A stretch of DNA of 64,000 bases from positions 372,001 to 436,000 of the forward strand of contig NZ_FPEI01000005.1 in the NCBI RefSeq assembly GCF_900117415.1, given 5' to 3'. Shown one piece after another: positions 10,631 through 24,264 of this stretch (within the stretch, counting starts at the first letter, position 1; each line of letters begins with the position of its first letter). The DNA comes from Hyphomicrobium sp. CS1BSMeth3. GTDB lineage: Bacteria > Pseudomonadota > Alphaproteobacteria > Rhizobiales > Hyphomicrobiaceae. The notes beneath the pieces are model-generated. The model saw nothing but the letters and a program-made list of their open reading frames with translations, was not told where the DNA came from and searched no databases. The position numbers and the translations under genes are program-made.

Positions 10631-10746
10631 GCTGAAAGGAACGGGGCGAGGTATGCGTTTCTGGACAAAATGCCAAAAACGCCCTCGCCGCGCGGTGTGA
10701 CCGCGCGGACACCGCCTGCGGCGGCCCCTGCCCCGTTCCTTTCAGC
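10631..10746 (+). ncRNA. Structured 116-nt element closed by a 17-bp perfect stem
   Basis: GCTGAAAGGAACGGGGC (10631-10647) is exactly complementary to 10730-10746. Inside are three hairpins in series: one pairing CGAGG+GCGTTT with AAACGC+CCTCG (about 10647-10687), a perfect 9-bp stem with GTG loop (10688-10708), and CCGCC-TGC-GGCGG (10712-10724). The fold resembles a four-way junction. It ends 5 bases before the AAGGAGG ribosome site of mobC, so as RNA it would sit in the mobC leader. Alternatives: part of oriT as folded single-stranded DNA, or a MITE-like insertion. Confidence 0.55.
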
Positions 10747-10760
10747 AACAAGGAGGCCTC

Positions 10761-11126
10761 ATGCCCACACGCGGTTACCGAAAAGGGGTATCAAAACCCA
10801 AGCTCACAAAACCCCGTCAGATCTACACGCGCGTGACCGAAGACGACCACATCGCTCTCGCCAACGAGGCGGCCAGCCGCAGCATCACCGCCTCCGACCT
10901 CACCCGCGCTATTCTCACAGCTCACATCCATGCGCAGAGGGTTAGCCTCCCGCACTTCCGACCAAACCCGCAACTGATGGCCGCCCTCTCCCGGATCGGC
11001 AACAACCTCAACCAGATTGCCCGCCAGGCCAACACGGAGATGGTTCCTGTCGCGGCCGCAACAATCAACCGCGCGCTTGCCGAAGTGCTCGAAGCCATGG
11101 ACCGCGTAGCACCAAGTGCTCGCTAG
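10761..11126 (+). CDS. mobC: MobC-like relaxosome accessory protein
   Basis: 121 residues, ATG preceded by AAGGAGG. The N-terminal part is basic with a ribbon-helix-helix-like 'IYTRVTEDDHIALANEAA'. The C-terminal part has the MobC hallmark 'LSRIGNNLNQIARQAN'. Known: MobC-type proteins bind oriT and help the relaxase nick DNA. It overlaps the relaxase gene by 11 bases, implying translational coupling. The structured element just upstream could control expression of both. Confidence 0.85.
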   Translation: MPTRGYRKGVSKPKLTKPRQIYTRVTEDDHIALANEAASRSITASDLTRAILTAHIHAQRVSLPHFRPNPQLMAALSRIGNNLNQIARQANTEMVPVAAATINRALAEVLEAMDRVAPSAR

Positions 11127-12324
11127 CATTGCGCCAGCCACCAACGACTTTCACGCGCTCGCGCGCTATCTCGTGCATGGCAAGCCCGGCACCACGCCGC
11201 ATCCCGAACGCGTTGCCTGGATACTCCCGCACAACATTCCCACCGACGATCCCGAACGCGCCGCGCGCATCATGCAGGCCACGGCCGGCCTCTCGGCGCG
11301 CACGCGCAAGGCCGCCTATCATCTGATGATCGCTTGGCATGAAAAGGAGCGGCCAACGCCGGAGCAGATGCAGGACATTGCCTTCAAGACCCTTGCGATG
11401 GCTGGCCTCGGCGAACACCAGGCGCTCATCATGGGCCACGACGACCGGCCGCATCGCCACCTGCATATGCTGATCAACAGGGTGCATCCCGAAACCGGCA
11501 AGGCCTGGCACCAGGCCCACGACTACGCCCGCTTCGACGCCATCATGCGCGAGCTCTCGGAGACCCACGGCTTCCTCTATGCACCGGCCCACGCCTACAA
11601 TCCCGAGCAGACCAAGCACCGACGCAAGAAACCCAACAGCCGCGCCACCTACGCGGCCAAGCGCGGCGCCCCCACCAACCGCCCTCAGTGGAGCCGTGAC
11701 GAAGCCGAAGTCTACGGCGCCCGCGTTTCAGACGGCATTGATGCAGGTTCCTCCTGGGAGGATTTGGAGGATCTGTTCGCCCGCGATGGCTACGCCCTCG
11801 AGCCCAAGGCATCGGGATGGATTGTCGGCAATGCCAATGGCTACACCAAGCTGTCCGCCCTGCGGCTCCAGCGTTCGGCAAAATCCATGTCGCGCTTCCC
11901 GGCCGCCGCAATTGCCAGCCTATTCAAGCCGACACCGGAACGCCGTCACATCCCGCTCGTCGATGCCGTCGACATCGCCAAGGGCCTTGCCGCCTGGGGC
12001 CTCATCAGCAAGGACGACGTCCGCACCGCCATCTCGGAAACCATCGAGGGCCGGCAGGAGCGCCGTAGGCTCAAAGAATCTGCTGCCATGCTCGATAAGC
12101 TCATCAAGACCCATCTGCTGGCTAGCACATCCATGACCGCACCACGCCCAAGCCCCTCTCCGGATCCAGCAAACAAGCGCCCTGCCGCCACCCGCCGCCA
12201 ACGGCACCCTTCTCGCGCAACACACCGCCTGCGCATTGCCCTGTCGCCGCCGCCTGATTTCACACCATTTTCCGCAACTTCGAGCACCAGCTACCGCTTA
12301 AAATCGCACAAGATTGACCGCTAA
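11116..12324 (+). CDS. Relaxase / mobilization nuclease (VirD2-like)
   Basis: 402 residues from GTG 11116, inside the end of mobC. The N-terminal ~170 residues form the relaxase domain with the metal-binding motif III 'HDDRPHRHLHMLINRV' (histidines at about residues 111-119) and a helical 'AYHLMIAWHEKERPTPEQM' motif II region. Known: such relaxases nick oriT and pilot the strand in conjugation; the motif arrangement is of the VirD2/MOBP kind. The C-terminal half is basic with no primase or helicase signature, and the last ~50 residues are low-complexity. The catalytic Tyr is not certain from sequence alone; a candidate is 'ARYLVHG' near residue 18. Confidence 0.85.
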   Translation: MLASIAPATNDFHALARYLVHGKPGTTPHPERVAWILPHNIPTDDPERAARIMQATAGLSARTRKAAYHLMIAWHEKERPTPEQMQDIAFKTLAMAGLGEHQALIMGHDDRPHRHLHMLINRVHPETGKAWHQAHDYARFDAIMRELSETHGFLYAPAHAYNPEQTKHRRKKPNSRATYAAKRGAPTNRPQWSRDEAEVYGARVSDGIDAGSSWEDLEDLFARDGYALEPKASGWIVGNANGYTKLSALRLQRSAKSMSRFPAAAIASLFKPTPERRHIPLVDAVDIAKGLAAWGLISKDDVRTAISETIEGRQERRRLKESAAMLDKLIKTHLLASTSMTAPRPSPSPDPANKRPAATRRQRHPSRATHRLRIALSPPPDFTPFSATSSTSYRLKSHKIDR

Positions 12325-12586: not shown

Positions 12587-13360
12587 TTATTCCTGACCCT
12601 TATAGCCTTCTCCGTCTCCGCCGAAGCTCAGCTGCACGCGAAGACAAGGCATGCGGGCGACCGTGTAGAGAAACACCTTTCCGTCCCGCGTGGCATTGCG
12701 CCCACGTATCTCGAAGATTGGAGAGGTCGAGGCAATTTTCAGGTTGGCCCTTTCTAACTCGGTCGGCAGCCTGCCGCTTACGAGGGTCTCGATGCGTATG
12801 TAGTCCTCAATGCCGAAGGTCTTGAGTGCACTAGTCAATGAGCGGAGTTCCGCGAAGCGGAGATCTATTCCGTCAAAACGACCTGCTTGCAGATAGTGAG
12901 TGGCGAAGGACATAGGCTGATTGGCTGCATAGCGCAGGAGATCCAAGCGGATCACCTCGGCGCCGGCGCCGGCGTCCAGCGCCAAGGCATTAGCCACATC
13001 TTCGGGCACGGCTACCGTTGTGCAAGCGAGCAGATCGCCTCTGCTGCTCAACCCATGGCGCATCAGGTTCTCGGTAAAACGAGTACGCACTCCGATGTGG
13101 TAGTCAATGACTTCTCGATTGATGTAGGTGCCGCTGCCATGCCGGACACGCAAAAGGCCCTCGCCTTCCAAGGCACGGATTGCCTTTCTGACGGTGTGCC
13201 GATGGACACTGAACAACTCGGCAAGGTCATTCTCGCCGGGCAACTGCTCGTGTTCGGCGAAACGGCCCGAAAGAATCTCTCCACGCAGCTCTAACGTCAG
13301 CCGAGACCAGATCGCACGATTACCCGTGGGCGAGCTTCCATCCACACAACTCTTCGTCAT
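12587..13360 (-). CDS. GntR-family transcriptional regulator (UTRA, PhnF-like)
   Basis: 257 residues. An N-terminal winged helix-turn-helix ('LPGENDLAELFSVHRHTVRKAI', residues about 38-60, then 'EGEGLLRVRHGSGTY') is followed by a UTRA ligand-binding domain. Known: this subfamily includes PhnF- and HutC-type repressors of nearby transport and catabolic genes. The start overlaps the stop of the TRAP permease by ATGA, so it is the last gene of the four-gene minus-strand unit and probably autoregulates it. Confidence 0.88.
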   Translation of the reverse strand: MTKSCVDGSSPTGNRAIWSRLTLELRGEILSGRFAEHEQLPGENDLAELFSVHRHTVRKAIRALEGEGLLRVRHGSGTYINREVIDYHIGVRTRFTENLMRHGLSSRGDLLACTTVAVPEDVANALALDAGAGAEVIRLDLLRYAANQPMSFATHYLQAGRFDGIDLRFAELRSLTSALKTFGIEDYIRIETLVSGRLPTELERANLKIASTSPIFEIRGRNATRDGKVFLYTVARMPCLRVQLSFGGDGEGYKGQE

Positions 13361-15474
13361 GAAGCCTGCCAGTGTTCCGGCTTGCCGCCTGCCCTCAAGC
13401 CGTTCTCAATCAAGACGGCCAACCCAAGCAATATTCCCGCGCCATACCATAGCGGATCGGTCGCGACCAGCAGGATGGCCGCCGCCGTGAGTACTAGGCG
13501 TCGCAATAAGCCGACGGCTGCGCGGAAGTACCCGACCATGGCGACGCCACAATAAATCATCGCTATCAACACTCTGATCGTTGCGAGGGCCGTGTCTGCC
13601 CAAGTGCCTTGGACCAACAGAAGTTCAGGTGAATAAACGGCCACGAAGGGTACGAGCAGCCCTGATAGCGCCAGCATCGTGCCGATCACCGCAATCCGCA
13701 GCGAGGAAGCGCCGGGCCCCGCGAACGGGAGCGCCGCGATCGCAGCGAGCGCTACGGGCGGCGTAAGCTGCGCCAGAACGGAGAAGTAGAACACGAACAT
13801 ATGCGCGACCAGCGGACTGACGCCCAATTGTACAAGCGGGGGCGTCACGACCACAGCACAGATGACATAGCTCGGCACGGTCGGCAGGCCCAGGCCGAGC
13901 AGGAGGCAGATAAGCATTGCCATAGTCAGACTGAGCCAAAGATGGCCAGCGCCGAGTGTCACCAGACCCGATGCGACCTCCAGCATCACACCGCTTAGCC
14001 CGAAGATGCCGTCGAACACGCCAACAATTACGCAGGTTATGCCCACGGCCACGGCATTGATCGTGCCGTGATACGTGCTCTCGAAACAGCGCCGCAACGT
14101 CTGACGCCCGCCAGCAAAGCTCGCGCAGACTACGGCAAGCACGGCAACCAGTAGCGTCAGAATCTGCGGATCGGCGATGACAACCATGCACGCGGTGGCG
14201 ACGCCGAAACTTGCGATATGCACGATCCATCGGGTCCTCGGCGGGCACAACTCGGCCAGCGGCACCGTCAGTATCAATGTGATCGTGAAACACAGTGCCA
14301 CAATCGCCGAGTAGAGCGGCGTATAGCCGAAGAAGAGAAGCGCCATGATCACGACCAGAGGCAGAAGCAGATGCAGACGACCTCGGATTGATGCTTCGGA
14401 CGCCCCCATGGCAACGCCGGTCATGACCGAAAGATTGAGGCGCCGCGCCTCCAGATAAGAGACCCAAGCAATACCGACGAAATACAAGATTGCCGGAATT
14501 GCCGCCGCCAAAGCGATCGTCACATAGGGAATGCCGAGCATCTCGGCCATGACGAAAGCGCCGGCTCCCATGATCGGCGGCATGATTTGGCCGCCCATAC
14601 TGGACGAGACCTCGACCCCAGCCGCAAATTCCGGCTTGTAGCCGTAACGCCGCATCAAAGGAATCGTCACCTGCCCAGAAGTGACGACATTGGCGATACC
14701 TGAGCCACTGACAGTCCCCATCATTGCCGAAGACAGAATGCAGGCCTGCGCCGGCCCCGAACGCCAGCCGCCGACGAATCGAATGGCAATGTCGTTAAAC
14801 AACGTAAGGATACCTGATTGCTGCAGGTAGGAGGCGAACAGTACAAACAGGAAGATGTAGGTGGCTGATACGGCCGTCGCAGTGCTGAACATGCCCTCGG
14901 TCCCGATCACCAATTGCTCAATGATTTGATCGAACCCATAACCCCGGTGCACCAAGGGCCCAGGCAGATAGTGTCCGAAAAGACCCCATAGCAGGATCGT
15001 TCCCGCCATGAGCGGCAGCGCATATCCGGTCGCGCGACGTGTCGCCTCGAATACGAGAACGACGAAGACGCTGCCCACCGCCAAATCAGCGGTGGTGGGA
15101 AAGCCCGGTCGATAGGCGAACTGCGCGCTCTCCGTCCAGAAATAGGCGCCGCAAACAGCCGACAGAGCAATCAATAACCAGTCGTACCAAGCGGCGTGGC
15201 CAAGCCGCGGCCTCATGTCGGAAGTGAAAATCAGAAAGCACAGCATGACCAGAAATGCGGCATGCACGCTACGCAGAGTTATTGCAGGAAGCGGGTTGAC
15301 CAGCGCGGTCCACATCTGGAAGGCCGCGAAGATCATCGCCACCATGATGATGGCCCAGCGGGTCACGCCGAGTCCGATGTCGGCTGCACCTTCGAGCTTC
15401 ATCTCAAGTGCATCCGCTGCCGAGAGTGTATTCACTGTGGCATCCGGCGCGAGATTGGAGCTGGCGTGTGTCAT
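13357..15474 (-). CDS. TRAP transporter fused permease (DctQM-type, TAXI-associated)
   Basis: 705 residues, strongly hydrophobic with many membrane spans. An N-terminal four-helix small-subunit-like part is fused to a large DctM-like part, with blocks such as 'GTVSGSGIANVVTSG' and 'GGQIMPPIMGAGAFVMAEMLG' typical of fused 4TM/12TM TRAP permeases that work with TAXI receptors. It moves a substrate, usually an organic acid, using an ion gradient. The TAXI receptor gene lies 39 bases upstream and the regulator overlaps downstream. Confidence 0.92.
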   Translation of the reverse strand: MTHASSNLAPDATVNTLSAADALEMKLEGAADIGLGVTRWAIIMVAMIFAAFQMWTALVNPLPAITLRSVHAAFLVMLCFLIFTSDMRPRLGHAAWYDWLLIALSAVCGAYFWTESAQFAYRPGFPTTADLAVGSVFVVLVFEATRRATGYALPLMAGTILLWGLFGHYLPGPLVHRGYGFDQIIEQLVIGTEGMFSTATAVSATYIFLFVLFASYLQQSGILTLFNDIAIRFVGGWRSGPAQACILSSAMMGTVSGSGIANVVTSGQVTIPLMRRYGYKPEFAAGVEVSSSMGGQIMPPIMGAGAFVMAEMLGIPYVTIALAAAIPAILYFVGIAWVSYLEARRLNLSVMTGVAMGASEASIRGRLHLLLPLVVIMALLFFGYTPLYSAIVALCFTITLILTVPLAELCPPRTRWIVHIASFGVATACMVVIADPQILTLLVAVLAVVCASFAGGRQTLRRCFESTYHGTINAVAVGITCVIVGVFDGIFGLSGVMLEVASGLVTLGAGHLWLSLTMAMLICLLLGLGLPTVPSYVICAVVVTPPLVQLGVSPLVAHMFVFYFSVLAQLTPPVALAAIAALPFAGPGASSLRIAVIGTMLALSGLLVPFVAVYSPELLLVQGTWADTALATIRVLIAMIYCGVAMVGYFRAAVGLLRRLVLTAAAILLVATDPLWYGAGILLGLAVLIENGLRAGGKPEHWQAS

Positions 15475-15513
15475 TGGGCCATCATCCTATTCGTTGCAGA
15501 GAGCGGGCGGCGA

Positions 15514-16500
15514 TCAGCCCGCCGTCACGCCATGCGCAGCAAAAAACGTCTTCGCACCATCGTGGAGAGGGATCGGCATCCCTTGAACGGCGCGCTCCAA
15601 TGAGAACTCGCGAAGCGCGGCGTGACCGCTACGGAACTTTTGGAGATCGGCGAAGATCGCCTCAAGGTAGCTGCGTACTTTCTCCGCTGGATGACTCTCG
15701 CTGCAGAAGAGCTGGGTCCATACCACCACGCCGGGGGCTGGTAGGCCCTGCACCTGATAGGTGCCGCTTGGGATCTCGGTTGCGACATAAGCCGAGTCGC
15801 CGATCTTCTTGACAAGCTCCGCAGGGATCGGCACGGCGACCATGTCGACTCCCGTTTGCAGTTCCTGCACCATCGGCGCGCCTAGCCCCGTTGACAGGAA
15901 GAAGCCATCGATGCGTCGGTTGCGAACCGCGTCACCCGCGTCGCCGGCGCCAAGGAAATCCACGCGCTTCAGATCCTCGAAGGACATGCCCGACGCAGCA
16001 AGAATGGCGCGAGCGTTTGTCTCGCTGCCGCCGCCGGGCGCGCCGACGTTCATGATGCGGCCGCGGAGATCCTCGATGCTCTTGATGCCTGAGTCGGCTC
16101 GAACCATCAGGTGCACGTGGCTGGGAAAGATCGAAGCGATGCCGCGCAGCCCTTGCATCGGCTTTGGAAATCGCTTCGGATCCGCCCCTCGCATGGCAGT
16201 CGATAGTACGTCAGCCAGCGCGATACCGAGCTCCGCCTTCCCGCCCATAACGAGAGTGACATTCAAGTTCGACCCGCCAGTTTGCTGGACTTGGACACGA
16301 GTATCGGGCAGTGCGGTGCTGATCGCATTGGCGACAGCAACACTGATTGGATAAAAGGAACCGCCCGTCGGGCCGCCAACAATCGTGACAAAATCTGCGG
16401 CTTGCGCGGGGAGCGTGGGGGCGAGCACGCCCGCAGCCACGGCCGCGGCTGAGGTGGACAGGAAGCTTCGGCGACTAAGAGGGATGTCTCGAGCGCTCAT
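15514..16500 (-). CDS. TAXI-family TRAP transporter periplasmic receptor
   Basis: 328 residues. The start at 16500 gives a twin-arginine-type signal ('LSRRSFLSTSAAAVAAG') ending near 'AQAA'. The mature protein begins 'DFVTIVGGPTGGSFYPIS', the TAXI hallmark, with later 'GAPGGGSETNARAIL' that usually contacts the ligand. It delivers ligand to the fused permease. It lies 72 bases after the dioxygenase gene. The ligand cannot be told from sequence; the adjacent TauD-type enzyme suggests a carboxylate or sulfonate. Confidence 0.92.
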   Translation of the reverse strand: MSARDIPLSRRSFLSTSAAAVAAGVLAPTLPAQAADFVTIVGGPTGGSFYPISVAVANAISTALPDTRVQVQQTGGSNLNVTLVMGGKAELGIALADVLSTAMRGADPKRFPKPMQGLRGIASIFPSHVHLMVRADSGIKSIEDLRGRIMNVGAPGGGSETNARAILAASGMSFEDLKRVDFLGAGDAGDAVRNRRIDGFFLSTGLGAPMVQELQTGVDMVAVPIPAELVKKIGDSAYVATEIPSGTYQVQGLPAPGVVVWTQLFCSESHPAEKVRSYLEAIFADLQKFRSGHAALREFSLERAVQGMPIPLHDGAKTFFAAHGVTAG

Positions 16501-16572
16501 AATTGTTTCTCTGTTTGCTATTGTGGGAAGGTTAGGTCGCAGACTTGCGATCCGATTGCACACGGGCCGGCA

Positions 16573-17442
16573 TCAGGCGGCGATGGGCACGCTACCGTTT
16601 GTCGTGATCCGATACATGCGCCTGACTTGATGCGCCGGCAGCTGATCCGTCGTCGCCGAATGGATGGTCGAGCGGTTGTCCCAGATCACAAGATCGCGTG
16701 GCCGCCATTTGTGGCGGTAGGTGAAGTGAGCCTGCGTCATGTGGTCAAACAGGCTTGAGAGCAGCACGTCGCTTTCAGCCTCGTCCATATCGACGATGCC
16801 TTTGACTCCTGACAGGTCGCCAGGGGCGATGAAGAGCGCCAAGGCTCCGGTTTCGGGATGGCGGATGACGAGCGGGTGGATGACCTCGGGGGTCGCCGCT
16901 TGCTCGGCTTCACTCAGGAAATTCCAGCGTGCACTGGGGCGCGAGCGATCCTTCATGAAACGGTATTCATGGCGAACGCGCAGGCCAGTGATCTTGTGCT
17001 TGGCGGCTTCGGACAGCGCCTCGTAAGCTGCGACCGTATCGGCAAACAGTGTGTCTCCCCCCTGATCGGGCACGACGACCGCCATCAGGAGCGTCGCACG
17101 GGATGGCACGCGCTTATAGGAATAGTCCGAGTGCCAGCCGACGCCGAAGGTTTTCATCTCCGGCTTGCGGCCGGTTTCATCTTGATTGGAGAGAATGGTG
17201 ATCTTCGGCTGCTCAGGATGACGAACCGCCACGACATGGTGCGGGTCGCATGATCCGAATGTCTCGGAAAATTTGACGAACTGCTCGGGCGAGAGCGCTG
17301 CATCCCGAAGCACAACCGTCTTGTTCTCCAGATAATGCCGGTGGAGAGCTGCCATGACTTTGGCGTCACTCAATAGCTCCGGAGTAAAGCCCGTGATTTC
17401 TGCCACGAAGGAAGGGCCTAGCTGCTGCACGTTGAATGTCAT
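16573..17442 (-). CDS. TauD/TfdA-family Fe(II)/2-oxoglutarate dioxygenase
   Basis: 289 residues, the usual family length. The iron-binding triad is visible: His and Asp in 'GWHSDYS' (residues about 102-108) and the distal His in 'DNRSTIHSAT', followed by the 2-oxoglutarate-binding Arg in 'VRRMYRITT'. Known: these enzymes hydroxylate sulfonates, phenoxyacetates or related acids, often causing cleavage. First gene of the unit dioxygenase, TAXI receptor, TRAP permease, GntR. Substrate not assignable; taurine itself is only one possibility because the expected tauABC are absent. Confidence 0.9.
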   Translation of the reverse strand: MTFNVQQLGPSFVAEITGFTPELLSDAKVMAALHRHYLENKTVVLRDAALSPEQFVKFSETFGSCDPHHVVAVRHPEQPKITILSNQDETGRKPEMKTFGVGWHSDYSYKRVPSRATLLMAVVVPDQGGDTLFADTVAAYEALSEAAKHKITGLRVRHEYRFMKDRSRPSARWNFLSEAEQAATPEVIHPLVIRHPETGALALFIAPGDLSGVKGIVDMDEAESDVLLSSLFDHMTQAHFTYRHKWRPRDLVIWDNRSTIHSATTDQLPAHQVRRMYRITTNGSVPIAA

Positions 17443-18037: not shown

Positions 18038-18532
18038 CTAAAGTGAGCGCCCCCTCTGACGACGCCGCCATTCCAGCGCGTCCTTCTCCACGTCTTTGCG
18101 AAGCTTCTCTCGGTCAATCACCACCACGCGCTTCTCGGCATGATTGGCCTTGAGCTCCTTCACTGCCTCGTCGACAAACTTGCGGTGGATCACACCGAAC
18201 ACGGCGCTATCCGGTTTGTAGTACGCGCGTGGCTGCATCTCCTTCAGCGGCCATGCCGCCCGATTGCCTTCCCGCGTAACTATGAACGACGGCTTGTGCG
18301 TTTCCAGACCAAGACGCAACAGCTCCTGGCGCGCAATCTCCACACCCATGTTGTCGTACTGCAGCGTATGTGTAATCGGCAGTAGCAGCGCCCGCCGCGC
18401 CTTCCCCTCACCCCTCAGCCCAACGATAACGGCGGGTCGGAACTTCCCCGCATCATCATGTCCGTCGTCGCGGTCCTGCGCCCACAGGTACGCGTACCAC
18501 ACGACCAGCCCCACCTCCGGCTTGATCATCAC
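18038..18532 (-). CDS. PemK/MazF-like toxin candidate
   Basis: 164 residues. The N-terminal ~60 residues show a PemK/MazF-like barrel start: 'GLVVWYAYLWAQDRDD', then 'KFRPAVIVGLRGEGKARRALLLPITHTL'. The C-terminal ~40 residues are highly charged. Known: MazF/PemK proteins are ribosome-independent mRNA interferases paired with an antitoxin encoded just upstream. The upstream gene here overlaps it and is a possible partner. Assignment is by fold-like pattern only; catalytic residues were not confirmed. Confidence 0.5.
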   Translation of the reverse strand: MMIKPEVGLVVWYAYLWAQDRDDGHDDAGKFRPAVIVGLRGEGKARRALLLPITHTLQYDNMGVEIARQELLRLGLETHKPSFIVTREGNRAAWPLKEMQPRAYYKPDSAVFGVIHRKFVDEAVKELKANHAEKRVVVIDREKLRKDVEKDALEWRRRQRGRSL

Positions 18533-18770: not shown

Positions 18771-18922
18771 ACGACCAGGCCCGGCAACCCAGCTGCACCA
18801 AATTGCACCACCCAAGCCTTCTTACCTTTGACCGCCGCCATTAAAGCCACGCGGTACGCACTTCCCACTTTCTGCAATCCGACAGCTCTCACTTTCTCCG
18901 TCAGTGCTTCCCCTGCACAGCG

Positions 18923-19077
18923 CAACCGTTGGCACCGTGACAGCCCCAGCCCACGCCGCCCAGGGCCGGCTGCAAGGGGCCCCTTCCCTTTCGCCGCCGC
19001 TTCGCGGTTTGCAGCCCGGCATCGTGCCCGTGTGCCTGTCCCCAAAGGGTGCAACGGAGCTGCACAGGGTAGCTCCG
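18923..19077 (+). ncRNA. Candidate structured leader RNA, copy 1
   Basis: About 155 nt, clearly homologous to 22750-22902. A long-range stem pairs CCGTTGGCACC (18926-18936) with GGTGCAACGG (19048-19057), one bulged G. Inside, CCGGCTGCA and TGCAGCCCGG can pair. At the 3' end GGAGCT/AGCTCC (19056-19061, 19071-19076) encloses the conserved loop GCACAGGGT. It ends 24 nt before the start of the small gene at 19101. Both copies keep this spacing. Confidence 0.55.
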
Positions 19078-19100
19078 ACCATCAGCGAAAGATCAAAGCC

Positions 19101-19328
19101 ATGTCGAACCAACCGAAAACCAACCGCAAGCCGACCCACGATGTCTTCCACGTCCGCGAAGGCAAACCCGGCTCCAAGGGCTTCTGGACCCGCATCGGCG
19201 CCGCCTGGATGCACGACGACCAGGGCGGACTGAACCTCCAGCTCGAGATGATGCCGATCGGCAAGGACGCCGGCCGCCTCGTCATCCGGGTGAAGAAACC
19301 CGACGAGCAAACCAACGCCGGGAACTAA
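19101..19328 (+). CDS. Small conserved-type hypothetical protein
   Basis: 75 residues. After a polar N-terminus it reads 'THDVFHVREGKPG', 'FWTRIGAAWMHDDQGGLNL', 'GRLVIRVKK', a compact beta-rich pattern I associate with small proteins of plasmids and integrative elements without known function. The ATG at 19101 lies 24 bases after the structured leader. It is followed by a hairpin and then by the five-gene overlapping operon. Confidence 0.7.
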   Translation: MSNQPKTNRKPTHDVFHVREGKPGSKGFWTRIGAAWMHDDQGGLNLQLEMMPIGKDAGRLVIRVKKPDEQTNAGN

Positions 19329-19339
19329 CCAACCACCAC

Positions 19340-19370
19340 GCGGGAGCGCGAGCCCACCTCGCTCTCCCGC
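19340..19370 (+). terminator. Hairpin after the small gene, attenuator-like
   Basis: A 13-bp stem with one mismatch (19340-19352 with 19358-19370) and loop CCCAC, 11 bases after the stop and 26 bases before the next start. There is no T-run, so it may be an RNA-stabilising or attenuating hairpin rather than a full terminator. Confidence 0.45.
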
Positions 19371-19396
19371 AACCCTCATCAACGAAAGCAACAACA

Positions 19397-19711
19397 ATGC
19401 CCATCACCACCTGCAACACCTGCGGCGGCGACTACCGCTGGGATTGGGAGGAAGCCTTCGACAAGTTTGGCTTCGGCGACGGCGACGGCCAGATCGAAAC
19501 CGACCGCGTCATCGATGTCCTGACTGAAGCTGGCTACCAAGTCGAATTTGGCGAGACCGGCCTGCACAATACCTTCATCGACAAAATCGCCGATGCCAAC
19601 GGTGTCACGCTCTACGAAGCTGACCGGGAATTCAGCCGCGACGTGCTCCCCGCCGAAATCCTCAAACTGCTCGACGAGAAACTGCCCGCCAATGGGAGGC
19701 TCGACAAATGA
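19397..19711 (+). CDS. Hypothetical protein, first gene of the overlapping operon
   Basis: 104 residues. The N-terminus has a CxxC pair ('CNTCGGDYRWDW') that could bind metal; the rest is acidic and helical. There is no signal peptide or membrane span. Its stop overlaps the next start by 4 bases (ATGA). Function unknown. Confidence 0.65.
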   Translation: MPITTCNTCGGDYRWDWEEAFDKFGFGDGDGQIETDRVIDVLTEAGYQVEFGETGLHNTFIDKIADANGVTLYEADREFSRDVLPAEILKLLDEKLPANGRLDK

Positions 19712-19968
19712 GCGACAACCTCACACGCGCCGGATGGGCCGCGCAATGCCTCAGCCTCTTTGCCAGCATGACCGGCACCGACACCGACGAGGAATCCATA
19801 GGCGACCTGATTGCCAACCTCGGTCACTACGCACGGCAAGAAGACCTCGACTTCCCGAGCCTTCTTCGCACCGGCATTGGCCACTGGCACCTCGAGCAGA
19901 TTGACGAGGAAAGCTTCGACCTGATGCCGACCGTCACTATCACCATCAACGGAGACCTCCTGCAATGA
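19708..19968 (+). CDS. Hypothetical protein, second gene of the overlapping operon
   Basis: 86 residues, acidic, with helical 'AAQCLSLFASMTG' and 'IGDLIANLGHYARQE' segments and a strand-rich end ('PTVTITINGDL'). It overlaps the genes on both sides by ATGA. No recognised family. Confidence 0.65.
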   Translation: MSDNLTRAGWAAQCLSLFASMTGTDTDEESIGDLIANLGHYARQEDLDFPSLLRTGIGHWHLEQIDEESFDLMPTVTITINGDLLQ

Positions 19969-20180
19969 GCAACCAGGACACCTACGCCGTGATCATTGAA
20001 GCCACCAACCGCTACGAAATCCGACTGCCGGCCAATGACGATGTCTCCGCACTCGACCACGCCCTGCGCCGAGCCCGCTGCTTTCGCCTCACCACCAAAG
20101 CGGGCTTTTCCCTCATCGACCACGCAATCAAGCCCGTGAATGTACGCCTACTATCCGACAATGAAAGCAGCCCATCATGA
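19965..20180 (+). CDS. Hypothetical protein, third gene of the overlapping operon
   Basis: 71 residues; begins with a strand pattern ('YAVIIEATNRYEIRLPAND') followed by a helix and a basic C-terminal half. ATGA overlaps on both sides indicate coupled translation. Function unknown. Confidence 0.65.
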   Translation: MSNQDTYAVIIEATNRYEIRLPANDDVSALDHALRRARCFRLTTKAGFSLIDHAIKPVNVRLLSDNESSPS

Positions 20181-20422
20181 GCCAACTCAAATCCTACACC
20201 GTCACTTTCCTCGACACTCTGCGCATCGAGGTGGAAGTCGAAGCCGAAAATCCCAATCACGCGCACTCGCTCGCCCTAGACCACTGGTCTGTCAGCCTGT
20301 GGGCCAAAGCCGACCCCGCGTTGAAGGACACCCCTTGCACCATCGCTGAAAGCACCCAGAAAGCCTTGCTCGAGGTTGAAGAGAATGAGTCTCCGCAAAC
20401 TAGTGAAAGCCAAAGCCAATGA
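20177..20422 (+). CDS. Hypothetical protein, fourth gene of the overlapping operon
   Basis: 81 residues. The first half is a beta-alpha pattern ('YTVTFLDTLRIEVEVEA', then 'HAHSLALDHW') similar in outline to the third gene, so the two may be distant relatives. The C-terminus is acidic and Ser/Gln-rich. It overlaps the methyltransferase-like gene by ATGA. Confidence 0.65.
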   Translation: MSQLKSYTVTFLDTLRIEVEVEAENPNHAHSLALDHWSVSLWAKADPALKDTPCTIAESTQKALLEVEENESPQTSESQSQ

Positions 20423-21144
20423 TGCCCCGCCTCTTGCACCCACGTAGCCTGATAAAACCCGCCAACCAGCCTATCCGCCTGCTGCGACCGAACGACATTC
20501 CCTCGACTGGGCAATCCAAGGCGACCAACCACGCCTTCGCCTTTGGCCCGCGCATCTCCCCCTCGCGCGCCGCCTGGGAATTCTACCCAACGCCACCTGA
20601 GGCCACGCGCGCTCTCCTCGGAGCCGAGCCCTTCTCCGGCAAGACCTGGGAACCGGCCTGCGGACAAGGACATATTGCGAACGTGCTTCTCGAGCACGGC
20701 CACCAGGTCATCGCCACCGACCTCGCCCCCTGCTGGGGCTACGGCGAAACCGGCCGCGACTTCCTTGCCGAAAGCCACGCCCTCGCCCCCGACATCATCA
20801 CCAACCCGCCCTACGGCCGCGGCCTCGGCGACAAATTCTGCAAGCACGCCATCGAGCTCACCCGCAAATTGCGCGGCAAGGTCGCCATGCTGCTCCCCAT
20901 CAACAGCCTCTGCCACCCCATCCGGCATCCCTTCTTCGAGACGCACCCGCCAAGCGTCATCTACGCCCTCGACGAATGCCACTGCTGGCCCTACGGCGAT
21001 GCCGCTCAAGCAACGCAAAGCCTCAAGCAGCAACGCTACTGCTGGATTGTCTGGGATCACACCTACCAGGGCGAAACCCGCCTGCGCTGGCTCACCACAG
21101 CGCACTACCGCAATGCTGAAAACTCAAGCCTCAGGGTCGCCTGA
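20419..21144 (+). CDS. DNA adenine-methyltransferase-like protein
   Basis: 241 residues. SAM motif I is seen in 'WEPACGQGHIANVLLEHGH' (residues about 76-94) and the catalytic N6-adenine motif in 'NPPYGRG' (about residue 133). The N-terminal ~45 residues are variable. Known: NPPY is the active site of N6-adenine DNA methylases; small stand-alone versions are common on phages and integrative elements. Last gene of the five-gene overlapping operon. No cognate endonuclease is present, so it is an orphan methylase at most. It converges with the next gene and overlaps its end by 21 bases. Confidence 0.8.
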   Translation: MMPRLLHPRSLIKPANQPIRLLRPNDIPSTGQSKATNHAFAFGPRISPSRAAWEFYPTPPEATRALLGAEPFSGKTWEPACGQGHIANVLLEHGHQVIATDLAPCWGYGETGRDFLAESHALAPDIITNPPYGRGLGDKFCKHAIELTRKLRGKVAMLLPINSLCHPIRHPFFETHPPSVIYALDECHCWPYGDAAQATQSLKQQRYCWIVWDHTYQGETRLRWLTTAHYRNAENSSLRVA

Positions 21145-22293
21145 ATCGATGGCGGCCACATTCTTCCGCAACCCCACGCCGTGGAACACGAGGTTGCTGC
21201 CCGCTTTCCCGAAATCTATCGCCTCATGCAATGGGTCAATTGCAACAATGGCCACACACAGCTGCTCCTGGACCCATGCCGCGCCCATGGGCTCATATCC
21301 CTTCTCCCGACACCATTCGACATAATCGTCGAAGGCTTCGTGCATGGCCGTCTGTTCGATTTTCGGCACCGGCACCCACCGCTCCGCCATGTACGCCTTG
21401 ACCCTGTCGCCAAACGGCCTGTCCACCGGCACCTCCACATCATCCCGCCGCGCTACGCGCCGCACCTCGCCCTGCTCCACGACGCCCGGCCGCAACAACA
21501 ATGTCGACAAATACAAACCCACCCCACTGCCCACTTCAACCACCAACGCAAACAGCAGCCCCAGCGCCAGCCGCACCGCGCCAACTTCCGGCGCGTCCTG
21601 CACCACAGTCCACAAGCGCCTCAAAACAGCCACCTGCGGATCGACGCCTTCCTTCACCGCCTTCTGTCCGCTACGCAGCAGCTCCACACTTCGCCGCGAG
21701 TTCGCCAATTCGCCATCCAGGCGCACCGCCTCGCGGCTGCGCGCCATTTCCACGCCCAGCCGCGCATATTCCTCGCAATGCTCCCGCGAAAGATATCCCG
21801 CCTTGGTGCATCCCTCCGACGCCTGCCCCACCGTCGTTCCCCGACCGACCGGGCGCGCAAGGACGGCTCGCCTGGCTTCCTCAAGCTCCTCAAGCGAACG
21901 CACGGCTCCATGATCTTCACGCGCGCGCTCGGCCCGCGCTAAAGCCCGCAATGCATCGCGGTAGGTCCCGGCCGCCGCATCCAGCCGCTCGCCCCGCACC
22001 ACACGGTGCCCTTCCGCAAATCCTAACGAAGCAACCAGGCTCGCCACCGTCGCCAGCGCAAAGACGCCCCAGGCGACGCTCCCACCAATGCGATGGCGCG
22101 CCGCCCATGCCGATAAGGCAACGAATGGCATCAACGCCTTGAGCCCATCCATGCTCACCAGCGCAACACCATAAATCCAGGTATCAATTTCGTTATCGGC
22201 GAGGCTCTGACCGAACCTGAAATTCAGAAAAGCTGAAACCCCAATCAAACCGAGGCTACACAGCACCCCCATCGCCGCGACCGCGCGCGCCAC
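21124..22293 (-). CDS. Membrane protein with internal coiled-coil region
   Basis: 389 residues. Three hydrophobic segments lie in the first ~95 residues, a charged coiled-coil-like stretch with 'CTKAGYLSREHCEEYARLG' occupies about 95-230, and another membrane segment ('VRLALGLLFALVVEVGSGVGLYL') is near 245-267. A cytosolic C-terminal domain of about 110 residues has a DNA-binding-like 'AAWVQEQL' stretch. The start overlaps the upstream gene by 38 bases. Family not recognised; the layout fits an element-encoded membrane factor. Confidence 0.7.
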   Translation of the reverse strand: MARAVAAMGVLCSLGLIGVSAFLNFRFGQSLADNEIDTWIYGVALVSMDGLKALMPFVALSAWAARHRIGGSVAWGVFALATVASLVASLGFAEGHRVVRGERLDAAAGTYRDALRALARAERAREDHGAVRSLEELEEARRAVLARPVGRGTTVGQASEGCTKAGYLSREHCEEYARLGVEMARSREAVRLDGELANSRRSVELLRSGQKAVKEGVDPQVAVLRRLWTVVQDAPEVGAVRLALGLLFALVVEVGSGVGLYLSTLLLRPGVVEQGEVRRVARRDDVEVPVDRPFGDRVKAYMAERWVPVPKIEQTAMHEAFDDYVEWCREKGYEPMGAAWVQEQLCVAIVAIDPLHEAIDFGKAGSNLVFHGVGLRKNVAAIDSGDPEA

Positions 22294-22612
22294 CAGCCTG
22301 CCTCCGCCGCACCAATCTCAATAGGACATCCCATTCCTCGGCACTCACCGCGCCCTTCAAAGCCGCCACCTTTGCTTTCACCGCCCTCCGCAATGCGGCT
22401 TCGCAGAAGCTGTTCTTGCTCTGCCCGCCGACCGTCGCAATAATATCCAACCCTTCCGCCACCTCATCGGTCACCCGCAACGTCACCCGTACGCGCCCGA
22501 TGCCTGATGCCTCCGCGACCACCACCTCCGCAGGAGCATCGGTCACGACTTCCTTCGCCTTGCTGAACAACCGCCGCAAGGCATCCTCATCGTCATCCGC
22601 CACTATCGCCAC
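22256..22612 (-). CDS. Putative ribbon-helix-helix regulator
   Basis: 118 residues. The centre reads 'VRVTLRVTDEVAEGLDIIA' followed by 'KNSFCEAALRRAVKAK', the strand-helix-helix pattern of Arc/MetJ-type DNA-binding proteins, at about residues 40-80. It overlaps the membrane-protein gene by 38 bases, so the two are co-expressed and it may regulate that pair. No catalytic motif. Confidence 0.6.
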   Translation of the reverse strand: MAIVADDDEDALRRLFSKAKEVVTDAPAEVVVAEASGIGRVRVTLRVTDEVAEGLDIIATVGGQSKNSFCEAALRRAVKAKVAALKGAVSAEEWDVLLRLVRRRQAGGARGRGDGGAV

Positions 22613-22749
22613 CTCCCGGCATCATGACGCCATGGCACTACCTTAACAGCCTCCCTCATCACCCCCGCAAGAGAACCGCGACGAACCCACAGCCGTTACA
22701 CCGGCTCATCCCGCTCTCCCGCATGTTTCAGCGAACCCCTGGTGCGCCC

Positions 22750-22902
22750 GAACCATTGGCACCGTGGCACCCGTTTCACCCGCTGCCCAGGGCCGGCTGC
22801 AGCCGGGGCCCCTCCCCCAACTTCGCCGCCTTACGGTTTCAGCCCGGCACCGTGCGCAATCGTGAGCCCCACGGTCGCCAACGGCGCTGCACAGGGCAGC
22901 CC
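22750..22902 (+). ncRNA. Candidate structured leader RNA, copy 2
   Basis: Homologous to 18923-19077. The outer stem is kept with compensating changes: CCATTGGC (22753-22760) pairs with GCCAACGG (22877-22884) apart from one A-C. The CCCAGGGCCGGCTGCA block and the GCTGCACAGGG 3' hairpin are conserved. It ends about 25 nt before the ATG at 22927. Confidence 0.55.
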
Positions 22903-22926
22903 GCTCAACAAACAAGGAAAACCGAA

Positions 22927-23094
22927 ATGATAACCTCCGTCACCGACCGCGCCTTCCTCCGCGACCAGTTCGAACTCGAGTTTCAAGGCCTGACCGGCAC
23001 CGCCCTCGACCACGCTATCGATGCCTGGTACGCCAGCGACCACTACGCCGACAATCCCGCCTACAGTTGGAACGACGAGGAGGTCATCCAATGA
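22927..23094 (+). CDS. Small hypothetical protein downstream of leader copy 2
   Basis: 55 residues, acidic and aromatic-rich ('FELEFQGLTGTALDHAIDAWYASDHY'). Preceded by AAGGAAAA and by the second structured leader. It overlaps a 30-codon frame at 23091 by ATGA. Unrelated in sequence to the protein behind leader copy 1. Confidence 0.65.
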   Translation: MITSVTDRAFLRDQFELEFQGLTGTALDHAIDAWYASDHYADNPAYSWNDEEVIQ

Positions 23095-23809: not shown

Positions 23810-24043
23810 ATGACAGAAGCGCCTAGGCCTCTCCCAGTTTCGAACCTGCTCACCACGCCGGAAGCAGCCGAGTACCTGCGCGTCTCCGACCGAACCCTCG
23901 AAGCCAAGCGCGTGGACGGCACTGGCCCCCGCTACTTCAAGGTCGGCCCCGGCAAAGCCTCCAAGGTCGTCTACCGCATTGCCGACCTTGAGGAGTGGCT
24001 CCAGAAGCAGCAGTACGGCTCCACCGCCGAATACAAGCGATAA
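23810..24043 (+). CDS. AlpA-like helix-turn-helix protein (excisionase-type)
   Basis: 77 residues with an HTH_17/MerR-like domain: 'LLTTPEAAEYLRVSDRTLEAKR', then 'VVYRIADLEEWL'. Known: such small proteins next to att sites act as recombination directionality factors or integrase regulators. It lies about 150 bases from the tRNA. No integrase is next to it in this window. Confidence 0.85.
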   Translation: MTEAPRPLPVSNLLTTPEAAEYLRVSDRTLEAKRVDGTGPRYFKVGPGKASKVVYRIADLEEWLQKQQYGSTAEYKR

Positions 24044-24144: not shown

Positions 24145-24189
24145 AACCGTCCGTCAAGTTCCCTTGGTGCTCGTAAGTCTTTGATTTCA

Positions 24190-24264
24190 TGGAGCGGGCG
24201 ATCGGGATCGAACCGACGACATTCAGCTTGGGAAGCTGACGTTCTACCACTGAACTACGCCCGC
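24190..24264 (-). tRNA. tRNA-Gly, anticodon CCC; attachment site of the element
   Basis: On the minus strand the 7-bp acceptor stem GCGGGCG/CGCCCGC, the anticodon stem TCAGC/GCTGA with loop TTCCCAA, the T-loop TTCGATC and an encoded CCA (24190-24192) are all visible. The anticodon reads CCC. The 3' end faces the mobile element, consistent with integration there. Confidence 0.93.

Follow-up and report, generated by a model that had tools for sequence, protein, structure and literature searches.

Two diverged leader copies, A and B, in a 64,000-nucleotide stretch of the Hyphomicrobium sp. CS1BSMeth3 genome (contig NZ_FPEI01000005.1, positions 372,001 to 436,000; hereafter the window) belong to a family of structured leaders of about 155 nt. 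Members of the family share a covarying fold, stand at a fixed place before an ATG and occur in relaxase-bearing elements, with a recurrent polarity against nic in the relatives of the window copies. On balance, we favor the view that these leaders are single-stranded promoters of a transferable element, a sequence-unrelated counterpart of Frpo. Work on such promoters has dealt with enterobacterial plasmids, F and ColIb-P9 among them (passages of PMC9849209). A wider proposal is evenly poised in our judgment: promoters unrelated to Frpo in sequence would drive early expression during the conjugation of elements and plasmids across Hyphomicrobiales, and starting transcription on incoming single-stranded DNA (ssDNA) would be a general strategy that either had several origins or has diverged too far to be recognized.

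A covarying leader family upstream of unrelated genes

A sequence-only reading of the window had proposed that both copies align throughout, keep an outer stem of altered sequence and a 3´ hairpin with a common loop, and end 24–25 nt before the ATGs of unrelated proteins. Each of these observations is confirmed here. The copies align over their whole length with a mean column identity of 79% (flanks included), and blastn of copy A against its own genome recovers copy B (74%, E=4e-17), the two being the clear matches there. The 3´ hairpin loop GCACAGGG is common to both. In copy B, the outer stem pairs TTGGC-ACCGTGG with CCACGGT-CGCCAA, and the version in copy A is weaker; compared with 200 shuffled arms, the pairing gives p=0.12 for copy A and 0/200 for copy B. 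Leader A ends 24 nt before its ATG (19101) and leader B 25 nt before its ATG (22927), and tblastn with the 75- and 55-residue proteins that follow matches different places.

The leader precedes at least four gene families, namely the 75-residue, 55-residue, DUF6878 and (by eye) AlpA-like families, in a comparison that left out the genes behind L013, L056, L069 and others (L and G numbers are our handles for loci and genomes). The 75-residue family lies behind leaders at seven other loci, and relatives of the 55-residue protein do so in G048 and G052 (tblastn; the second at E=8e-4). DUF6878 and DUF6915 follow the copy at 347 kb of the same contig (C3), and in G043 and G076 the genes in line with the leader include those for DUF6878 and DUF2958. 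The similarity of the leaders is not explained by their downstream genes, and the earlier rejection of a gene duplication stands.

Covariance models were built from copies A and B and then from 12 copies on the template strand (model R2). Among 103 genomes of Hyphomicrobiaceae, the first model matched eight (the window's own genome and seven others) and R2 matched 10 at E≤0.001, own genome included; in a sample of the order, R2 matched 2 of 121 genomes, again with the own genome. Closer inspection of 13 genomes yielded 18 leader copies in 11 genomes, 10 of them Hyphomicrobiaceae. Two of the 18 are weak, and both lie outside the window on the same island (C3:347168-347307, E=0.008; C3:335607-335744, E=0.7); the latter was retained because its hairpin and ribosome-site module is conserved. 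In G162, a genome from outside Hyphomicrobiaceae but of the same order, a compensated version takes the place of the conserved stem (read from the sequences); the leader there is next to tRNA-Lys and precedes what reads by eye as an AlpA-like gene. A strict DNA pattern recovered six stretches in genome contigs, five of them on contigs equal in length to ones that had already matched, and none in viral contigs, and blastn of copy B against phages gave no match.

In the leader, an outer stem of variable sequence surrounds an inner hairpin and a conserved stem (CAAGGGCCG with CAGCCC). This branched stem is directly followed by a distinct 3´ hairpin, H3, which precedes a ribosome site (often CGAAAG) and the ATG. 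The distance from H3 to the ATG is 19–24 nt in 18/18 copies. In an alignment of 12 copies made by sequence only, 83.2% of 553 cells are paired, a level reached by 0/500 shuffles. Both sides are changed in 25 of the 47 pairs, with 62 such cells compared with 24.3 in shuffles (0/500), and the covariation in further homologues that had been suggested as a check is thus strong. Pairing drops to 32–49% when the partners are slid, a control biased in favor of the structure, which was derived from the same alignment. In 14 of the 18 copies, arm pairing exceeds that of shuffled arms at p≤0.05; it is not better than p=0.10 in copy A, L008 and L014, and the L013 hairpin is misplaced in that arm alignment.

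Several candidate identities and markers were discarded. Against Rfam (4227 families, radC among them), the window yielded only tRNA at gathering score and two sub-threshold matches (E up to 10), both outside the leaders; radC and other Rfam motifs were rejected, as no covariance model matched the leaders. The 15-mer CGGTTNCAGCCCTTG was rejected as a marker: it occurs in 28/297 genomes, but only 1 of 30 places is a leader, as judged by CAAGGGC upstream and reading by eye. Weak blastn matches of another leader copy were chance-like, and the two inspected were uninformative; a further search gave a single short match.

Polarity of the leaders relative to nic

The nic site of RSF1010 is TAAGTGCG/CCCT (as given in part of PMC4814116). 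Six elements (L037, L042, L047, L049, L113 and L114) carry an inverted repeat and ATAAGTGCG/CYCT beside genes for a MobA/MobL relaxase and a coupling protein, matching the RSF1010 nic at 2.4–5.8 kb from the leader. Nic-like sites were counted only beside a relaxase gene, and occurrences of the short motif elsewhere (L041, L051, L114 454 and several plasmids, among others) were excluded. The relaxase and the leader gene are on one strand and the nic-like site (TAAGTGCG/C) on the other. The transferred strand runs 3´-ward from nic and is therefore the template of the leader genes, with the leader reached after the above distance. L044 has a nic-like site of the same polarity 12.2 kb from the leader, beside a second relaxase, and the expected polarity is found in 7/8 integrated elements. 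In G052 and G048, both leaders and nic lie inside one att-bounded element; measured across the att joint, the second leader is 11.5 and 10.4 kb, respectively, from nic. In G043, G064, G162 and the second G078 contig, tblastn with the available relaxases as queries found no relaxase, and these were left out of the count.

A related branch lies on plasmids of Hyphomicrobiales. The analysis covered 13 plasmids of this group, the last five of which came from a leader search matching 15 records; the same search in phages gave no match. The plasmid leaders end in a hairpin like CCGGCCGCGA..GGCGTGGCCGG with AACCAACGGGAG (in L129 by blastn only). Model R2 is blind to this branch (one match, E=0.99), and kinship is deduced from the hairpin and ribosome-site module and the 75-residue-family gene, which are common to both branches. 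Rfam matched only tRNAs in these plasmids (6/13 records), plus one sub-threshold match (E=4.4) in the L122 leader. In the 11 plasmids with a leader and a nic-like site, the two are on opposite strands in 11/11, and the leader lies 0.4–8.7 kb ahead of nic in seven. L124 has a leader, but the stretch contains no relaxase; L127 has a 75-residue-family gene and a relaxase, but the leader module was not found. In the Rhizobium plasmid L128, a second AACCAACGAAAG module at ~1780–1850, shortly 5´ of a DUF3768 gene, resembles the Hyphomicrobiaceae ribosome-site module.

Across the 19 elements and plasmids with an RSF1010-type nic-like site, the leader gene has the transferred strand as its template in 18, cases of common ancestry that do not count as independent. 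The leader lies 0.4–12.2 kb ahead of nic in transfer order in 14 of the 19, enters late in four and is reversed in one. Passages of PMC11541004 place the relaxase typically in the late-entering region and describe leading anti-defence genes oriented for transcription from the transferred strand. This polarity, together with a layout shared with Frpo of F, appears to point to the transferred single DNA strand rather than to RNA.

In the mechanism that we propose, the leader would be quiet in the integrated, double-stranded element. During conjugation, the relaxase would nick oriT and the template strand of the leader genes would enter the recipient, where the leader could fold within the single DNA strand into a long branched stem and a small hairpin. 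The folded leader would offer a duplex start site to the host RNA polymerase, and the 3´ hairpin would form the transcript start just 5´ of the ribosome site. The small genes, which encode the 75-residue family, acidic proteins, the methyltransferase, DUF6878 and DUF6915, would be transcribed early. Completion of the second strand would abolish the fold and end expression.

The folding strand and competing explanations

The evidence as to which strand folds is mixed. Wobble pairs were counted in an alignment with fixed anchors and L013 corrected. In the inner hairpin, the sense strand has 15 C.A and two G.T, which favors the template strand in these related, non-independent sequences; one pair is U.G in nine and G-C in two of 11 on the template strand. 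Consensus folding with RNA energies also favors the template strand (–88.8 compared with –72.5 for the sense strand). Single-sequence z-scores are lower on the template strand in 10/12 copies with DNA energies and 8/12 with RNA energies, and the DNA minimum energy is lower on that strand in 7/8 of the plasmid branch. Free energy alone was dropped as proof of the strand: the complement is more stable in 11/12 (the twelfth, L015, is badly trimmed), but composition explains part of this and the DNA consensus energies point in the opposite direction.

Besides shared ancestry, several observations weigh against single-stranded promoters. The outer-stem wobbles carry no strand signal (25 C.A, 12 G.T; p=0.30 against composition), those of H3 favor the sense strand (10 G.T, two C.A), and so does consensus folding with DNA energies (template –3.3, sense –7.6); the folding statistics do not decide the folding strand. 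The G076 (L054) leader, near a contig end, has the opposite polarity to the sole nic-like site on its contig. In L125, L130, L131 and L132, the leader is located behind the relaxase and, if the plasmids are circular, would be last to enter; the records give L131 and L132 as linear. No nic was identified in the window's own element. Across the att joint, mobC1 is 12.8 kb from copy A and 9.0 kb from copy B, but both copies follow the second relaxase, and the other two island copies are more than 15 kb from either mobC gene. Finally, sigma70-like hexamers are not above chance in the 18 copies; Frpo1 and Frpo2 of F fail the same scans, so this failure says little. As a separate observation, an integrase-like gene lies between the relaxase and the late-entering leader in the Rhizobiaceae plasmids L125, L130, L131 and L132.

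The strongest competitor, which we consider a possible but distinctly less likely explanation, is a 5´ untranslated region that acts as a structured RNA leader. Transcription would start at a conventional promoter further upstream, and the fold in the mRNA, perhaps by masking the ribosome site, would control its translation or its stability. The fixed distance between H3 and the ATG suits this model, as do the sense-strand preferences of the H3 wobbles and of the DNA-energy consensus. In part of the plasmid branch, CTCCC 5´ of H3 could pair with a GGGAG ribosome site (by eye), a pairing that is not seen in the window copies. No sigma70-like promoter was found upstream of copies A and B, in a weak scan, and an RNA leader does not predict the polarity against nic. 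Of the earlier proposal, a mobile-element RNA regulator or a shared control region, the second half is supported, with a mobile element as the carrier of the control region; action as RNA is the less likely half. An RNA role is possible above all for the 3´ hairpin; our guess is that the main stem is a single-strand DNA fold and the 3´ hairpin an RNA hairpin at the transcript start.

A priming site for second-strand synthesis (ssi/sso type) would likewise act as ssDNA, but not as a promoter. It shares the polarity evidence with a single-stranded promoter and would still be useful in a late-entering position; we regard it as improbable, since a priming site would not need the conserved spacing to the ATG. 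Still less probable is a double-stranded operator of inverted symmetry bound by an AlpA or ribbon-helix-helix protein of the element. AlpA-like genes do occur no more than 2 kb from the leader in the window and in six searched loci (L037, L038, L042, L044, L047 and L049; tblastn), but the outer stem has compensatory changes that keep pairing rather than sequence, and a site for a sequence-specific protein would have no need of this. Although both copies are crossed by long open frames, it is very improbable that shared coding sequence alone explains the similarity, as different genes follow, changes are compensatory and alignment gaps are not in threes.

The integrated element, its genes and related systems

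The features of the window are listed in Table 1. An 84.2-kb element (C3:312008-396234, ending at 24234 of the window) is bounded by 46-nt repeats of the tRNA-Gly(ccc) end; a guessed att repeat gave no match, and the repeat was found with the tRNA end itself. At the attL side, an integrase adjoins attL, relatives of MobC and the relaxase lie at ~319.7–321.0 kb and a VirD4-like protein is encoded at ~325 kb (tblastn). The second MobC-relaxase pair is in the window (Pfam), and the element, with two such pairs, may be composite. Its four leaders and both relaxases are all on the + strand. In G052 and G048, elements of 33.8 and 49.2 kb are bounded by 50- and 49-nt repeats, respectively, at tRNA-Ala, with two leaders each.

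Table 1. Positions of leaders, genes and attachment features within the window.
Feature	Position	Strand	Basis
MobC	10761..11126	+	Pfam PF05713
Relaxase, leader strand	11116..12324	+	Pfam PF03432; NCBIfam TraI_MobP below cut-off
Leader copy A	18922..19077	+ (strand of following gene)	End-to-end alignment, blastn, covariance model
Inner hairpin P3, copy A	18970..18994	+	Alignment, wobble analysis
3´ hairpin H3, copy A	19056..19076	+	24 nt 5´ of ATG
75-residue protein behind leader A	19101..19328	+	tblastn
Five more genes in line with leader A (104, 86, 71 and 81 residues; 241-residue methyltransferase)	19397..21144	+	
Leader copy B	22749..22903	+	End-to-end alignment, blastn, covariance model
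Inner hairpin P3, copy B	22797..22826	+	Alignment, wobble analysis
3´ hairpin H3, copy B	22883..22902	+	Hairpin-to-ATG measurement
55-residue protein behind leader B, isoelectric point 4.1	22927..23094	+	tblastn
AlpA-like helix-turn-helix protein	23810..24043	+	Pfam HTH_17; tblastn
attR, 46 nt, identical to attL (C3:312008-312053)	24189..24234	.	
tRNA-Gly(ccc), integration site	24190..24264	-	

Copy A heads six genes in line, the last of which encodes a DNA methyltransferase with NPPY; the 104-, 86- and 81-residue proteins have isoelectric points of 4.1–4.5. The L037 relative of the 75-residue protein matches in 24 plasmid records. The predicted fold of the 75-residue protein (mean predicted local distance difference test score 78) has no PDB match at E≤0.001. 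The 75-residue gene and a DNA methyltransferase gene directly after it form a conserved pair in L120, L121, L122, L124, L125, L131 and L132.

Upstream of mobC, at ~10635–10743, a 13-nt inverted repeat (GAAAGGAACGGGG / CCCCGTTCCTTTC) surrounds a block shared upstream of other mobC genes; this region is an oriT candidate in which nic was not located. The segment between the relaxase and the leaders (12587–17442) encodes a TauD-like dioxygenase (Pfam) and, by eye, a GntR-like regulator, a TRAP-type transporter and a substrate-binding protein, which are perhaps cargo. On the minus strand at 18041–18532, a 164-residue protein matches a MazF-like PHROG very weakly (E=0.035).

If the leaders are single-stranded promoters, their covarying family, carried by integrative elements and small plasmids of Alphaproteobacteria, would provide a tractable second system and would mark leading regions where a search by Frpo sequence finds nothing. 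The uncharacterised small proteins behind the leaders are candidates for establishment or anti-defence roles. A literature search returned no paper title on single-stranded promoters in Alphaproteobacteria. Neither 'rhizob' nor 'alphaproteobacteria' occurs in PMC12826799, nor in the main text of PMC11541004, which covers a wide data set.

Among known systems, the STAXI motif (Weinberg 2010; passages of PMC2864571) is also structured and near DNA-handling genes, and its authors considered ssDNA; however, STAXI is a repeated pseudoknot, and the leaders have no Rfam match. The Frpo-like candidates of Samuel et al. 2024 (passages of PMC11541004) are leading-region promoters before methyltransferase and anti-defence genes with transcription from the transferred strand, as proposed for the leaders, but they were found by Frpo similarity or by a –35/–10 consensus with a fold. 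The closest likeness is to Frpo1 and Frpo2 (ssi) of F (NC_002483), which combine a long branched stem, a small GC-rich hairpin and a ribosome site (passages of PMC9849209); the long stem-loop and separate 3´ hairpin before a gene start, by which Frpo/ssi elements are recognized, are present in the leaders. F also has two diverged copies (89% identical) with small unrelated genes pointing to oriT. When F was folded as a control, the template strand was more stable in 4/4 comparisons and the z-scores had no consistent winner. In contrast to Frpo, the leaders span ~155 nt rather than the ~340 nt folded for F, no –10/–35 boxes were recognised in them by the scan, and they occur in integrative elements and plasmids of Alphaproteobacteria. 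Because blastn of copy A and the L014 leader against a plasmid collection that included F gave no match, the leaders are not filed as Frpo, although as a class they are Frpo-like.

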